DNA from: Deltaproteobacteria bacterium
Lineage (GTDB): Bacteria; Myxococcota_A; Polyangia; Fen-1088
DNA: 60,455 nucleotides
Direction of reading: 5' to 3'
NCBI GenBank assembly: GCA_016935975.1
Contig: JAFGPX010000288.1
Coordinates: 1 to 60,455 of the forward strand
Part shown: positions 37,720-46,410 of the stretch, piece after piece
Numbering within the stretch: the stretch's first letter is position 1
Layout of the letters: the number at the start of each line of letters is the position of its first letter
Position numbers and translations under genes: made by a program
Notes under the pieces: generated by a model
The model's input: only the letters and a program-made list of their open reading frames with translations
Database searches by the model: none
Told to the model about the DNA's origin: nothing

Positions 37720-38394
37720 CTACCTGCGCCGCAAGGGCCACGCGAACAGGAGAAGCGCCAGCGTCACGCCCGCGCTCCCCGAGGGCACGCCACCCACGCG
37801 GCAGTCGCAACCGCCGCCGCGGCTGGCTGGCGCGGTTGCTGGGGAGCCGCCGGTGGAGGTCGCGCCACCGCTCGACCCGGCGCCGCCGCCAGCCATGGTT
37901 CCGCCGGTCGCGGTCACGCCGCCGCTTCCCGGCAGTCCGCCGGTCGCAGATGCGCCGCCGCTTCCCGATCTGCCGCCATTCGCAACCACGCCACCGCCGG
38001 TCCCGGTCGTCCCTCCCGTGCCGATGCTTGCATCCCTGCCTCCTGCGCCCCCTGCCGCAGTACTTCCTCCGGTCCCACTCCTCCCGCCCGTCGCACGGTT
38101 GCCGCCCGTCCCAACCGCCCCAGCGCTGCCCGCGGCGCCGCCGGCTGCCGCGACGCCGCCGCTGCCACTGAGGCTGCCACCGTCGGCCACGCCAGCATCG
38201 GGCAGCCGCGTGTAGGCGCGCACGTAGTCGATCTGGTGGAGACCGGGGAACGGGGTCGTCGCGTCGGGCGGGCCGGGCCAGTTGCCACCGATGGCCAGGT
38301 TGACAATGATGTACATCTCGACCTGGGGCACGCCCTCGCCGGTGTGGCGCTGGTGCTCGATCCCTCCAGTGACCGGCATTGCTTCCAATCCCAT
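37720..38394 (-). pseudogene. C-terminal remnant of a GH16 glucanase with MYXO-CTERM tail
   Basis: The frame encodes the last strand region of a GH16 beta-glucanase: GIEHQRHTGEGVPQVEMYI, then IVNLAIGGNWPGPPDATTPF and DYVRAY, all family-typical. It continues through about 110 Gly/Ala/Thr-rich residues to a MYXO-CTERM-like end (GCDCRVGG, a hydrophobic stretch, RRR). The catalytic EIDxxE region and the signal peptide are missing, and nothing upstream restores them before the divergent gene at 38470. It is therefore a 5' truncation and probably not functional. A stem (AGGAGC/GCTCCT, 37701-37721) overlaps the stop codon. Confidence 0.7.
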
Positions 38395-38469: not shown

Positions 38470-40548
38470 ATGCGCCGACGACTGTATGGATTCGTCGTCT
38501 TATTCTCGATCGTCGTGATGGGCACGGCATGGCTGCGGTGGCGTGGCCAGCTGCCGCGGCAAGCGCCAGTGCCCCAAGAGCCGACAGTGCAGGCTCGCCA
38601 GCCGCCACCACCGCAAGAGGCAGCCGTGCCAGCGACGGCCACGCCCAGGCTCCACGTGCTCGCCATCAACGGCGGCGGCTCGGCGCGTAAGAACTACCTT
38701 TCGCATCTCCAGCATCTGCAGGGATTGGTCGATCTGCTCCATACCGCCGGCGTGCCGGCGGAGCGCATCACGGTGCTGGCCGGTGACGGCAGCGATTCCA
38801 CGCCCGACCTCGCGGTCCGGGTGGAGAGCATCGGCGCGGAGTACTGGCGGCTGCGCGGCACCCCCGCCGAGGGCAAGTTGCTGCCGCGTCTGGAACTGGG
38901 CAACTCCGCGGTCACGGGCGCCACGCTCTACCCCGCCACCCGCGGCTCCCTGTCGATCTGGACCCTGACCGTCGGCCAGCAGCTGCGGGCCGGGGACACC
39001 CTCCTCCTCTACGTCACGGATCACGGAAGCAAGGGTGCCACACCCGAGGAGAACCGCATCGTCCTATGGGGCTCCGAGCAGGGGCTGTCGGTCAAGGAGC
39101 TGCGCGAGACCCTCGAAACGCTGGACCACCAAGTCCGCATCGTCGCGCTCATGTCCCAGTGCTACTCGGGAGGATTCGCGACCCTGCTCTCGCTGGACGG
39201 CGCGCCGGGCGAGGCGACCGGGCGCTTCTGCGGGTTCTTCTCGGCGAAGGCCAAGGATGGGTCGTACGGCTGCTACCCCGAGACGCGCGATGATCCCAAG
39301 GTCGGCCATTCCTTCATGTTCCTGCAGGCCTTGCCCGCGACGGCCGGCCGCTTCGCGCTCGCGCACGAGCTGGTGGTAGAGCGCGACGACACCCCCGACC
39401 AGCCGCTGCGCACCTCGGACCTCTATCTCCACGGCCTGTTCGAGCAGGCCGCGCGCGGCCGGCAGCGATCCGTGGCCCAGCTCGCCGACGAGTTGTTGCC
39501 TTCGGCCTGGGCGCAACCGGGCGCCTTCACTCGCCAGGCCCAGCTTCTCGACCGCCTCGCCGCGCGCTTCGGCTTCGCCAGCCCCCGCCGCCAGGCCAGC
39601 GTCGATGACCTGCGTCGCCGCTTGCAGGAGTGGCAGGCGCGGCTCGACGAGGCAGTCGAGAAGCTCGGCCGGACGCTCGAGAATCTGAACCGTGCGGTGT
39701 TCCGCCGCTTCCTCCAGGCCCGGGCGCAGTGGCTGGCCTCGCTCAAGCCCGCTGCGCTCAAGGCGATGAAAACGAGCCAACGCGCACAACTGGGCGCGAC
39801 GCTGGTCACGGAGCTGGCCGCCTTCTCGCAGGATGACAGCCAGGGGCAGACGCAAGCCGCCGCGAAGGAGATGTGGGACGCCGCTCGGAAGCTCGCCTTT
39901 CGCATGCGGGTGCGCCTGGCAGCGCTCGAGCGCATGGCGCTCCTGCTCGATTCGGTGGCGGCGGCGCAGTATCTGGAAAACCACGAAAGGGAGCGCGCCG
40001 GTCTGGATCGACTGCTCGTGTGCGAGGATCTGGTGTTGCCCCTGCCCAGAAGGGAATGGCCGCCCCCTCCGCCGCTGCCTTTGCTCGCCGACGACCTGGC
40101 CCAGGTGGAGATGATCCTGGCGCTGACCTCGATCGAGGATCGATCCAAACCGGCGGCCCTGCGCGTGGGCGAGCCTTTGCCCATACTCGAGCTTGTCCCC
40201 TATCGTGGCGAGATCACGGCCGTCGGCAACGGCAAGCCGCTACTGCTCTTCTTCTGGGCGACTTGGTGCAAGCCGTGCAAGGACATCCTGCCGGATCTCT
40301 TGGCCTTGGCCGCGAAGCAGGATCTGACCGTGCTGGCGATCGCGGGTGAAACCGAGGCCGATCTCGACCGCTTCTTCGTCACCGCACGCGACTTCCCCGC
40401 GCTGGTGGCTCGCGACCCGGAAGCCCGCGTCCCCCTGCTCCTCGGATTGCGCGTCGTCCCCAGCTTGGTGCTTGTCGACGGGCAGGGCCGAGTGGCTAGC
40501 AAGATCGTCCATTCACCGCGCGAGCTGCCCGGGGCGGACAGCGAGTAA
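38470..40548 (+). CDS. Caspase/legumain-like protease fused to a thioredoxin-like domain
   Basis: The protein has 692 residues. An N-terminal membrane helix (about 5-23) and a Pro/Gln-rich linker (30-58) suggest a periplasmic protein tethered to the inner membrane. Residues about 60-300 form a clan CD peptidase-like domain: a first strand LHVLAINGG, His185 in YVTDHGSKG, and Cys231 in ALMSQCYSGGF. This is the His-Gly / Gln-Cys dyad of C13 and C14 enzymes. Residues about 330-530 are alpha-helical and Gln/Arg/Leu-rich. Residues about 555-692 form a TlpA-like thioredoxin domain with Cys600 and Cys603 (ATWCKPCKD) and the cis-Pro region VVPSLVLVDG. I know of no standard family with this architecture. 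A redox-controlled protease is one reading. Confidence 0.8.
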   Translation: MRRRLYGFVVLFSIVVMGTAWLRWRGQLPRQAPVPQEPTVQARQPPPPQEAAVPATATPRLHVLAINGGGSARKNYLSHLQHLQGLVDLLHTAGVPAERITVLAGDGSDSTPDLAVRVESIGAEYWRLRGTPAEGKLLPRLELGNSAVTGATLYPATRGSLSIWTLTVGQQLRAGDTLLLYVTDHGSKGATPEENRIVLWGSEQGLSVKELRETLETLDHQVRIVALMSQCYSGGFATLLSLDGAPGEATGRFCGFFSAKAKDGSYGCYPETRDDPKVGHSFMFLQALPATAGRFALAHELVVERDDTPDQPLRTSDLYLHGLFEQAARGRQRSVAQLADELLPSAWAQPGAFTRQAQLLDRLAARFGFASPRRQASVDDLRRRLQEWQARLDEAVEKLGRTLENLNRAVFRRFLQARAQWLASLKPAALKAMKTSQRAQLGATLVTELAAFSQDDSQGQTQAAAKEMWDAARKLAFRMRVRLAALERMALLLDSVAAAQYLENHERERAGLDRLLVCEDLVLPLPRREWPPPPPLPLLADDLAQVEMILALTSIEDRSKPAALRVGEPLPILELVPYRGEITAVGNGKPLLLFFWATWCKPCKDILPDLLALAAKQDLTVLAIAGETEADLDRFFVTARDFPALVARDPEARVPLLLGLRVVPSLVLVDGQGRVASKIVHSPRELPGADSE

Positions 40549-42059: not shown

Positions 42060-42446
42060 CTACCAGATCGCCGGCACCGGGTACTGGGTGACCAGCGGAT
42101 CGGGGCTAAGCAGGGTCAGCCCGCCCATGATCGCTTGGCACACGAGCATGCGATCGAACGGATCCTTGTGCAGCTCGGGCAGCTTGGCACTGGCGAGCGC
42201 CGCGTTCTCGTCGAGGGGTAGCGGCTCGATGCGGTGGCGTTTGCGTTCCTCGGGCACGAGCACGGACGGCGGACGCGGCAGGGGCAGCTTGCCCAGGCTG
42301 TGCTTGAGCGCGATCTCCCATGCCGAGACTGCGCTGAGAAAGACCTCGTTTCCCGGATCCGTGAACTGCTCTCGCGCCGTCGCGGATAGTGAATCGTCGC
42401 CCGTGATGATCCATAGGAAGGCGCAGGTGTCGAGCAGCAGTCTCAT
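42060..42446 (-). CDS. vapC: PIN-domain toxin (VapC-like)
   Basis: The protein has 128 residues. PIN-domain acidic residues are Asp6 (LLLDTCAFLWI), Glu44 (SAWEIALK), and Asp95 and Asp98 (HKDPFDRML), expected to bind Mg/Mn for RNA cleavage. The motif set is that of the Sll0205-like PIN group. The ATG overlaps the antitoxin stop as ATGA. As a type II toxin it would be neutralised by the upstream partner. Confidence 0.9.
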   Translation of the reverse strand: MRLLLDTCAFLWIITGDDSLSATAREQFTDPGNEVFLSAVSAWEIALKHSLGKLPLPRPPSVLVPEERKRHRIEPLPLDENAALASAKLPELHKDPFDRMLVCQAIMGGLTLLSPDPLVTQYPVPAIW

Positions 42447-42688
42447 GGCTTCTCGCCGCGGAAGGACGCCACGACCTCGTCGGGCAGAGGTTGGAAGAAC
42501 CGTGGCGGCACCCGGAACTGCCCCTTGGCCAGGCCCACGGGACGTGGGTGCTTTCCCGGCTGGGAGATGGCGCGCAGCTCGGCCAGCGGCGCGTTCCGGC
42601 TGCAGATCACGACGGTCTCGCCTCGCGCCACGGAAGCTACGTACTCGGAAAGCTTGGCTTTGGCCTCGGCAATGTTGACCTTCAACAT
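42443..42688 (-). CDS. Phd/YefM-type antitoxin
   Basis: The protein has 81 residues from the ATG at 42688, which gives the standard start MLKVNIAEAKAKLSEYV. Other in-frame ATGs at 42694 and 42706 come from a 12-bp tandem duplication over the start region, so the real start is uncertain by a few codons. The N-terminal part (GETVVICSRNAPLAELR) is the DNA-binding Phd fold. The C-terminal 40 residues should wrap the toxin. It is translationally coupled to the PIN toxin and should repress its own promoter with it. Confidence 0.85.
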   Translation of the reverse strand: MLKVNIAEAKAKLSEYVASVARGETVVICSRNAPLAELRAISQPGKHPRPVGLAKGQFRVPPRFFQPLPDEVVASFRGEKP

Positions 42689-42710
42689 GACCATGATTAT
42701 GACCATGATT
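42687..42710. repeat. Perfect 12-bp tandem duplication over the antitoxin start
   Basis: ATGACCATGATT occurs twice in a row. On the minus strand each unit supplies in-frame ATG codons (AATCATGGTCAT), so the antitoxin has several alternative starts. Changes in copy number would keep the frame, because 12 is a multiple of 3. Confidence 0.85.
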
Positions 42711-42908
42711 GTGCCCAGTAGCAAGGCTAGCGAGGAGGTAGCCATGCCTAGGATCTCGGCAACGGGAGGGAGAAGTTGCCTGAGCGGAGAACGAAAAGTA
42801 CCCTTGGAGGGAGATACAGAGGGAGATCCAGGGAGAGCCTAAATGCGACGACTGGCCCACGGGGTAGCCGTTTGCGCGCTCGACGCGACGCTGTCCGCGA
42901 GTTGCTAG

Positions 42909-44364: not shown

Positions 44365-45450
<1,086 letters not shown>

Positions 45451-45507
45451 TCCGTGTTTCGAGTGGATCGCCCGCCTGACGGGCCGTAGATTCGAGGCAC
45501 AGCCAGC

Positions 45508-46410
45508 ATGGTCCCTACCGGCCACAGACAGAAGGTGCGCGAGGTCGTCGTCGTCACAACGACCTTCGTCGTGGCGCTTTTTCTCTTGCGCGGCAGCGCG
45601 CACTCGCCCGAGTACCTGTCGCCTCTCGACCGCGGCATCTTGACCGTCGTGGCGCCCATCCAGTCGGCCTTCGCCACGCTGGCCCGTAGCATCGGACACG
45701 TGGCCGGCCGCTACGTCGATCTCGTGCATGTGCGCGCCGAGAACGAGAGCCTGCGCAACGAGAACCGCCGTCTGCGCGCCGAGCTACTCGAAGCCAAGCG
45801 CGGTTCCGCCGAGAGCATTCGCTTCCAGAAGCTGCTCGGGCTGCGCAACGCCGTCACGGCAGAAACCCTCGTAGCGCGCGTGATCGCCATCGACGTCTCT
45901 CCCTATTTCCGCGTCGCCCGCGTCCGCCTGGATCGCGGCGAGAACCTGGTCCAGCGCGGAATGCCGGTCATCACGCCCGAGGGCGTCGTCGGCAGAATCA
46001 ACCGTACGTCGGGCGACACCTCCGACATCATGCTGTCCGTGGATCCACGCTCGGCCATCGACATCGTGCTGCCGCGCACCGGCGGGCGCGGCATCTTGAA
46101 AGGCAAGCCGGGAGAGAACGGCTACCGCTGCGTCATCGAGTACCTGATGCAGGGCGATCAGGCCAAGGAAGGCGACGTGGCGGTCACCAGCGGCCTCGGG
46201 GGTTTTCCACGCGATCTGCCCGTGGGTCGGGTCAGCAAGATCGTGAGAAACGCGGCCGGGCTGACCCAGGACATCGAGGTCACGCCCGACGTCGATTTCG
46301 CGCGCTTGTCCGAGGTGCTGGTGGTGGTGGCGCCGACCCCACCCCCCGATCCGGAGGCCGCCGTGAAGAAACCCTTGGCGCCCGCGCACGGGCTCGGGGT
46401 GTATCGCTGA
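45508..46410 (+). CDS. mreC: Rod-shape-determining protein MreC
   Basis: The protein has 300 residues: a short cytoplasmic end, one membrane helix (about 12-28), a coiled coil (about 70-100, ENESLRNENRRLRAELLEA) and two small beta-barrel domains (VIAIDVSPYFRVARVRLDRG, GVVGRINRTSGDTSDIML, SGLGGFPRDLPVGRV). MreC links MreB to PBP2 in the periplasm. The stop overlaps the mreD start by one base (TGATG). Confidence 0.95.
   Translation: MVPTGHRQKVREVVVVTTTFVVALFLLRGSAHSPEYLSPLDRGILTVVAPIQSAFATLARSIGHVAGRYVDLVHVRAENESLRNENRRLRAELLEAKRGSAESIRFQKLLGLRNAVTAETLVARVIAIDVSPYFRVARVRLDRGENLVQRGMPVITPEGVVGRINRTSGDTSDIMLSVDPRSAIDIVLPRTGGRGILKGKPGENGYRCVIEYLMQGDQAKEGDVAVTSGLGGFPRDLPVGRVSKIVRNAAGLTQDIEVTPDVDFARLSEVLVVVAPTPPPDPEAAVKKPLAPAHGLGVYR

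Follow-up and report, generated by a model that had tools for sequence, protein, structure and literature searches.

A predicted membrane-tethered, legumain-like cysteine peptidase joined to a TlpA-type thioredoxin in myxobacteria

Within the window (the whole stretch of 60,455 nucleotides that was analysed) we found a gene whose product, judged from its sequence, is a predicted divergent C13-like clan CD cysteine peptidase in a new domain context. Both the clan CD peptidase and the TlpA-type thioredoxin are of known kinds, and what is new here is a C13-like peptidase in the context of PDZ and thioredoxin domains. The host is a soil bacterium, and the family is undescribed yet widespread in myxobacteria. 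Perhaps the protein is a legumain-like (C13-type, clan CD) cysteine peptidase that is anchored in the envelope and uses its C-terminal thioredoxin to handle substrates, a tentative reading to which we give a little under half of our belief.

The open reading frame is intact from ATG to TAA, encodes 692 amino acids, and has a GC content of 0.73/0.48/0.86 at the three codon positions, as in genuine genes of GC-rich DNA. A first-pass annotation made from the sequence alone had read a membrane helix at the N-terminus of this protein, followed by a clan CD peptidase and a TlpA-like thioredoxin, and this reading of the domains was confirmed by Pfam and by structural models (Table 1).

Table 1. Location in the window of the gene and of the predicted features of its product
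Feature	Residues	Coordinates	Strand	Basis
Whole gene: membrane helix, legumain-like peptidase, helical region, TlpA-like thioredoxin		38470..40548	+	
Hydrophobic N-terminal helix, signal anchor	3-25	38476..38544	+	sequence/model
Clan CD (C13-like) peptidase core	about 58-314	38641..39411	+	Pfam, models, Foldseek
Asn75, aligned to legumain Asn-Tyr	75	38692..38694	+	invariant in 35/35 TDHG-clade proteins
Catalytic His185 of TDHG	185	39022..39024	+	alignment
Catalytic Cys231 of MSQCYSGG	231	39160..39162	+	alignment
Cys254, non-catalytic, invariant	254	39229..39231	+	alignment
Cys268 (GCYPE), non-catalytic, invariant; in loop following strand 253-257	268	39271..39273	+	alignment, model
Helical region; two long helices, 375-417 and 457-504	315-519	39412..40026	+	models
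Cys518 (CED), non-catalytic, invariant; end of helical region	518	40021..40023	+	alignment
Short linker; HtrA-type PDZ of ~100 aa here in most relatives	520-563	40027..40158	+	
TlpA/ResA/DsbE-type thioredoxin domain	564-684	40159..40521	+	Pfam, NCBIfam, Foldseek
Redox motif Cys600-Lys-Pro-Cys603 (WCKPC)	600-603	40267..40278	+	alignment
Pro664, cis-Pro position of the thioredoxin fold	664	40459..40461	+	kept in 26/27 fused proteins

The peptidase was recognised as Peptidase_C13 of Pfam (PF01650; residues 174-281, E 1.7e-7, score 31.5 bits, curated cut-off 22.8). No C14 Pfam match was obtained with the 692-residue protein even at E up to 10, and filing it with the C14 caspases was rejected for this reason. 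Of the earlier description as caspase/legumain-like, the clan therefore stands and the caspase family does not, the protein being nearer to C13/legumain by both Pfam and Foldseek. Because several relatives score under the Pfam C13 cut-off, we consider the family to be a divergent branch of C13.

Using a profile of the peptidase-helical part, homologues were found in 67 of the 379 Myxococcota genomes of the sample and, in phylum samples centred on Acidobacteria, Deltaproteobacteria and Acetobacteraceae, in 2 of 247, 2 of 198 and 6 of 399 genomes respectively, counts that are not estimates of prevalence because the sampling of genomes is uneven. Both proteins of the Deltaproteobacteria-centred sample were full peptidase-PDZ-thioredoxin proteins, and those of the Acetobacteraceae-centred sample were weak, partial matches to the core only. 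The tree has two clades with a long branch between them. One is made up of 24 proteins that have neither PDZ nor thioredoxin and in which the histidine motif is variable and mostly AGHG-like; the other is the TDHG clade, whose usual form is an export signal followed by peptidase, helical region, PDZ and thioredoxin. The PDZ of these relatives is nearest to that of the HtrA/Deg proteases (degP_htrA_DO, E 9.5e-13).

On the phylogenetic evidence the fused architecture has a single descent. A fusion made by the assembly was rejected, since it is present in 27 proteins, in many genomes and in another phylum; a separate descent of the fused thioredoxins was likewise rejected, as the thioredoxin tree places all of them on one side of one branch, even though that branch is weakly supported. 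In one Acidobacteria metagenome-assembled genome (QHYA01000101.1, L036:3809-6182) a peptidase-PDZ-thioredoxin homologue is split over three reading frames, and the portion with the catalytic cysteine was not found in frame; this is a broken gene or the result of assembly errors.

Four proteins bear the thioredoxin and no PDZ (those of the window, G002, G007 and G008 C41) and form one clade (support 100/98), and in the window's family the proteins with PDZ alone fall into a separate clade of nine (support 100/99). One further protein without thioredoxin, L090, lies elsewhere in the tree of the TDHG clade. The genome of the window (G000) has a second copy of the gene, on contig C115 (13369-14790, - strand; L039:5001-6965), consisting of peptidase, helical region and PDZ without thioredoxin, and one copy of each kind is present in each of G000, G002 and G007. 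In the tree of 37 TDHG-clade proteins this pattern of labels needs three changes, one for PDZ and two for thioredoxin. The tree alone does not separate gain from loss, and we infer loss because the deepest split of the TDHG clade has peptidase-PDZ-thioredoxin proteins to either side: the branch of the window would have lost its PDZ, and the sister copy its thioredoxin but not its PDZ. The branches uniting each lineage with its nearest PDZ-thioredoxin relative have moderate support (91/80 and 81/96), and consequently the duplication can be placed in time only approximately.

The catalytic residues are where the first-pass annotation had placed them, and in the TDHG clade His185 is present in 34 of the 35 aligned proteins and Cys231 in all 35; Asn75, His79, His82, Asp113, Cys254, Cys268, Asp310 and Cys518 are equally invariant in these. 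The protein has exactly six cysteines (231, 254, 268, 518, 600 and 603), and the peptidase-helical part of the family nearly always has exactly four, the catalytic one and the three invariant ones, which are invariant also in the sister clade without thioredoxin. A weak profile alignment to legumain 4aw9 (E 0.15) brings Asn75 to the Asn-Tyr of legumain, which we take to hold the catalytic Asn42, and brings the positions of Arg44 and Glu187 of the legumain S1 pocket to the variable residue 77 and to Ser229. On this weak alignment the asparagine-specific S1 pocket is apparently not kept, which suggests another specificity. One fused homologue (L128:2897-5311, - strand) has Gln in place of the catalytic histidine (SSQGE) and an intact CxxC, and is possibly a pseudo-peptidase.

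A full-length AlphaFold2 model, made with 15 homologues, had a mean pLDDT of 85.6 and a pTM of 0.71, and a model of the peptidase and helical region alone, made with 52 homologues, reached 94.6 and 0.92. The latter values indicate that these two parts are confidently predicted as a single unit, which adds to the helical middle that had been noticed earlier. In the models His185 follows strand 177-182 and Cys231 follows strand 223-228; this is the layout of clan CD that had been claimed for them, and from such a topology of neighbouring strands the two residues are probably close to each other. Compared with solved structures by Foldseek, the full model had legumain at the top (E 3.6e-7), with a GPI transamidase subunit and thioredoxins of the Etrx2/DsbE/ResA type also among the matches. 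The peptidase-helical model likewise had legumain at the top (4n6o, E 1.3e-6, TM 0.59 by target length), followed by metacaspases, MALT1 and GSU0716, with the VyPAL2 ligase also among the matches. By sequence, GSU0716 (3bij) was the best match among solved structures (E 1.8e-5), and Foldseek gave no convincing match for the helical region among them.

The thioredoxin fold with its WCKPC motif was also read correctly in the first pass, as Cys600, Cys603 and Pro664 are present and AhpC-TSA of Pfam is matched above its cut-off (residues 585-676, E 1.7e-8, 34.8 bits against 26). The CxxC, like the cis-Pro, is kept in 26 of the 27 fused, thioredoxin-bearing proteins, and this conservation supports well that the fused thioredoxin is probably redox-active. 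The domain resembles the TlpA/ResA/DsbE-type thioredoxins in its WCxxC, cis-Pro and fold, and differs from them in being fused to a peptidase and in scoring under every NCBIfam equivalog cut-off (for DsbE, 37.8 against 123 bits; for ResA, 34.5 against 170 bits). In one fused homologue (L093:4489-7005, + strand) both active-site cysteines of the thioredoxin are lost (TSWSGKG) and the peptidase dyad is intact.

Most members of the family have signal peptides, lipoboxes or N-terminal membrane helices, and such export signals are found in many of the homologues without thioredoxin as well; no clear signal peptide was seen in one deep fused subclade (L099-L102, L106, L108, L114, L128). The helix of the window's protein has positive charges at both flanks, and for this reason its topology was taken from those homologues that have a signal peptide or lipobox. 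Two DsbD_TM proteins and two VKOR proteins are encoded in the genome, which makes both reducing and oxidising envelope pathways plausible. Upstream, the first gene of clear function codes for an envelope chaperone like SurA/PpiD, a weak piece of context. There was no conserved neighbour around the thioredoxin-only copies and no conserved operon that would link this gene with envelope quality control, so that coupling by gene neighbourhood was set aside as uninformative. The copies without thioredoxin adjoin genes for a HEAT-repeat protein, a RecD2-like helicase and a phosphofructokinase. The direct neighbour of five fused members of one subclade (L100, L101, L106, L108 and L114), in the same orientation, is a radical SAM gene like that of lysine 2,3-aminomutase. 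None of the PADLOC families was matched by the protein, and a reading as a defence system was rejected on this result.

According to the reading that we prefer, the protein would be anchored in the inner membrane and face the periplasm, where its thioredoxin would draw electrons from the DsbD/CcdA-type membrane carriers of the genome and reduce disulfides in envelope proteins that are misfolded or damaged. With these bonds opened, such folded proteins could then be cut by the tethered peptidase. In the ancestral form an HtrA-type PDZ would also capture substrates, and in the window's family these accessory functions would have been shared out between two gene copies, the thioredoxin staying with one and the PDZ with the other. 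The first-pass annotation had proposed instead that the thioredoxin may sustain the activity of its own protease in the oxidising periplasm, or may make the protease respond to redox stress. More broadly, such a domain might keep Cys231 reduced or open an inhibitory disulfide, so that activity follows the redox state of the envelope. The redox type of the thioredoxin agrees with this, and the three invariant cysteines cannot all pair among themselves, which would leave one of them free or paired with Cys231. Furthermore, the strand neighbouring the catalytic one is followed in the model by a loop that contains Cys268, and in clan CD enzymes this loop is on the active-site side. However, the same four cysteines are unchanged in proteins without thioredoxin, namely the PDZ-only clade of nine, L090 and the 24-member sister clade. 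Since exported homologues of this kind keep the catalytic residues and the three invariant cysteines, the fused thioredoxin is not generally needed for the peptidase cysteine, and a reduction of disulfides on the side of the substrate is therefore favoured; the HtrA/Deg-like PDZ of the relatives, as a substrate-binding context, was counted for it too. This objection is limited by the fact that the proteins without thioredoxin could be served by a reductant acting in trans or by their fused sister copy. We thus regard maintenance or switching of the protein's own peptidase as possible, weakened and, on balance, rather unlikely. Still less likely, in our estimation, is a specific form of redox gating in which Cys231 would form an inhibitory disulfide, with Cys268 as the best candidate partner, to be opened by the fused thioredoxin when it is given electrons; the sister copy would have its switch operated in trans and receive substrates through its PDZ. 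If true, this would couple proteolysis directly to the reducing supply of the envelope. The preferred reading, for its part, gives the three extra invariant cysteines no explanation, and counted against it are also the homologue without thioredoxin cysteines, the fused subclade without clear signal peptide and the absence of a conserved operon.

A thioredoxin of the DsbE/ResA/TlpA type, losable without change in the peptidase motifs, could also be an independent thiol reductase that shares only the anchor with the peptidase and serves cytochrome c maturation or a general TlpA duty. However, the fusion is old, is found in many families and in another phylum with the catalytic residues of both domains conserved together, and would be expected to split more often if the two were uncoupled; we find this explanation doubtful. 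The matches to the GPI transamidase subunit and to VyPAL2 raise the idea of a transpeptidase or transamidase like GPI8 or the asparaginyl ligases, attaching or processing surface proteins, and a MYXO-CTERM-tailed open reading frame divergently adjoins the gene. These matches are nevertheless weaker than or equal to those with ordinary legumain, no consistent neighbour was found, and the enzyme that processes MYXO-CTERM proteins is another, unrelated one, so that such an activity seems very improbable.

With the C13 family (legumain, PIGK/GPI8) the protein shares the TDHG and C-x-S-G motifs, the asparagine aligned with Asn-Tyr and the fold, whereas it is bacterial and membrane-tethered, is associated with PDZ and/or thioredoxin, has a helical region unlike solved structures and extra invariant cysteines, and has many relatives below the Pfam cut-off. 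The ancestral form resembles the HtrA/Deg proteases in being an envelope protease with a PDZ most similar to that of Deg, but it is a cysteine peptidase and not a serine peptidase, its catalytic fold is unrelated to theirs, the window's copy has no PDZ, and no trypsin-like serine protease domain was found by Pfam and NCBIfam profiles in the protein and its relatives. Prokaryotic metacaspases or orthocaspases (C14B) and GSU0716 belong to the same clan, and differ by the C14 Pfam match that is missing here. A 2012 survey of prokaryotic caspase homologues (PMC3501461) mentions neither PDZ nor redoxin nor thioredoxin. No family with this architecture was found in Pfam, NCBIfam or PADLOC, and nothing relevant in the open literature, subscription papers being outside the search; this is in agreement with the earlier statement that no family with such an order of domains was known.

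A legumain-type peptidase is here joined to a disulfide reductase and, ancestrally, to an HtrA-type PDZ, functions that usually belong to separate proteins of envelope quality control. The duplication followed by opposite losses of accessory domains offers a natural experiment, in which two copies in one genome separate the contributions of PDZ and thioredoxin. If the coupling is real, the protein would be a bacterial counterpart, on a single chain, of the lysosomal thiol reductase acting with legumain and other cysteine proteases.

Other genes of the window were also noted. An open reading frame at 37720-38394 (- strand) contains a short piece like the C-terminal end of glucan-active proteins, a long Gly-rich stretch and a MYXO-CTERM sorting signal (20.5 bits against a cut-off of 20), and resembles the tail of a truncated enzyme gene. 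A Phd/YefM antitoxin followed by a PIN-domain toxin at 42060-42745 (- strand) is an ordinary type II toxin-antitoxin pair, and mreB and mreC, ordinary cell-shape genes, are consecutive at 44416-46410 (+ strand).
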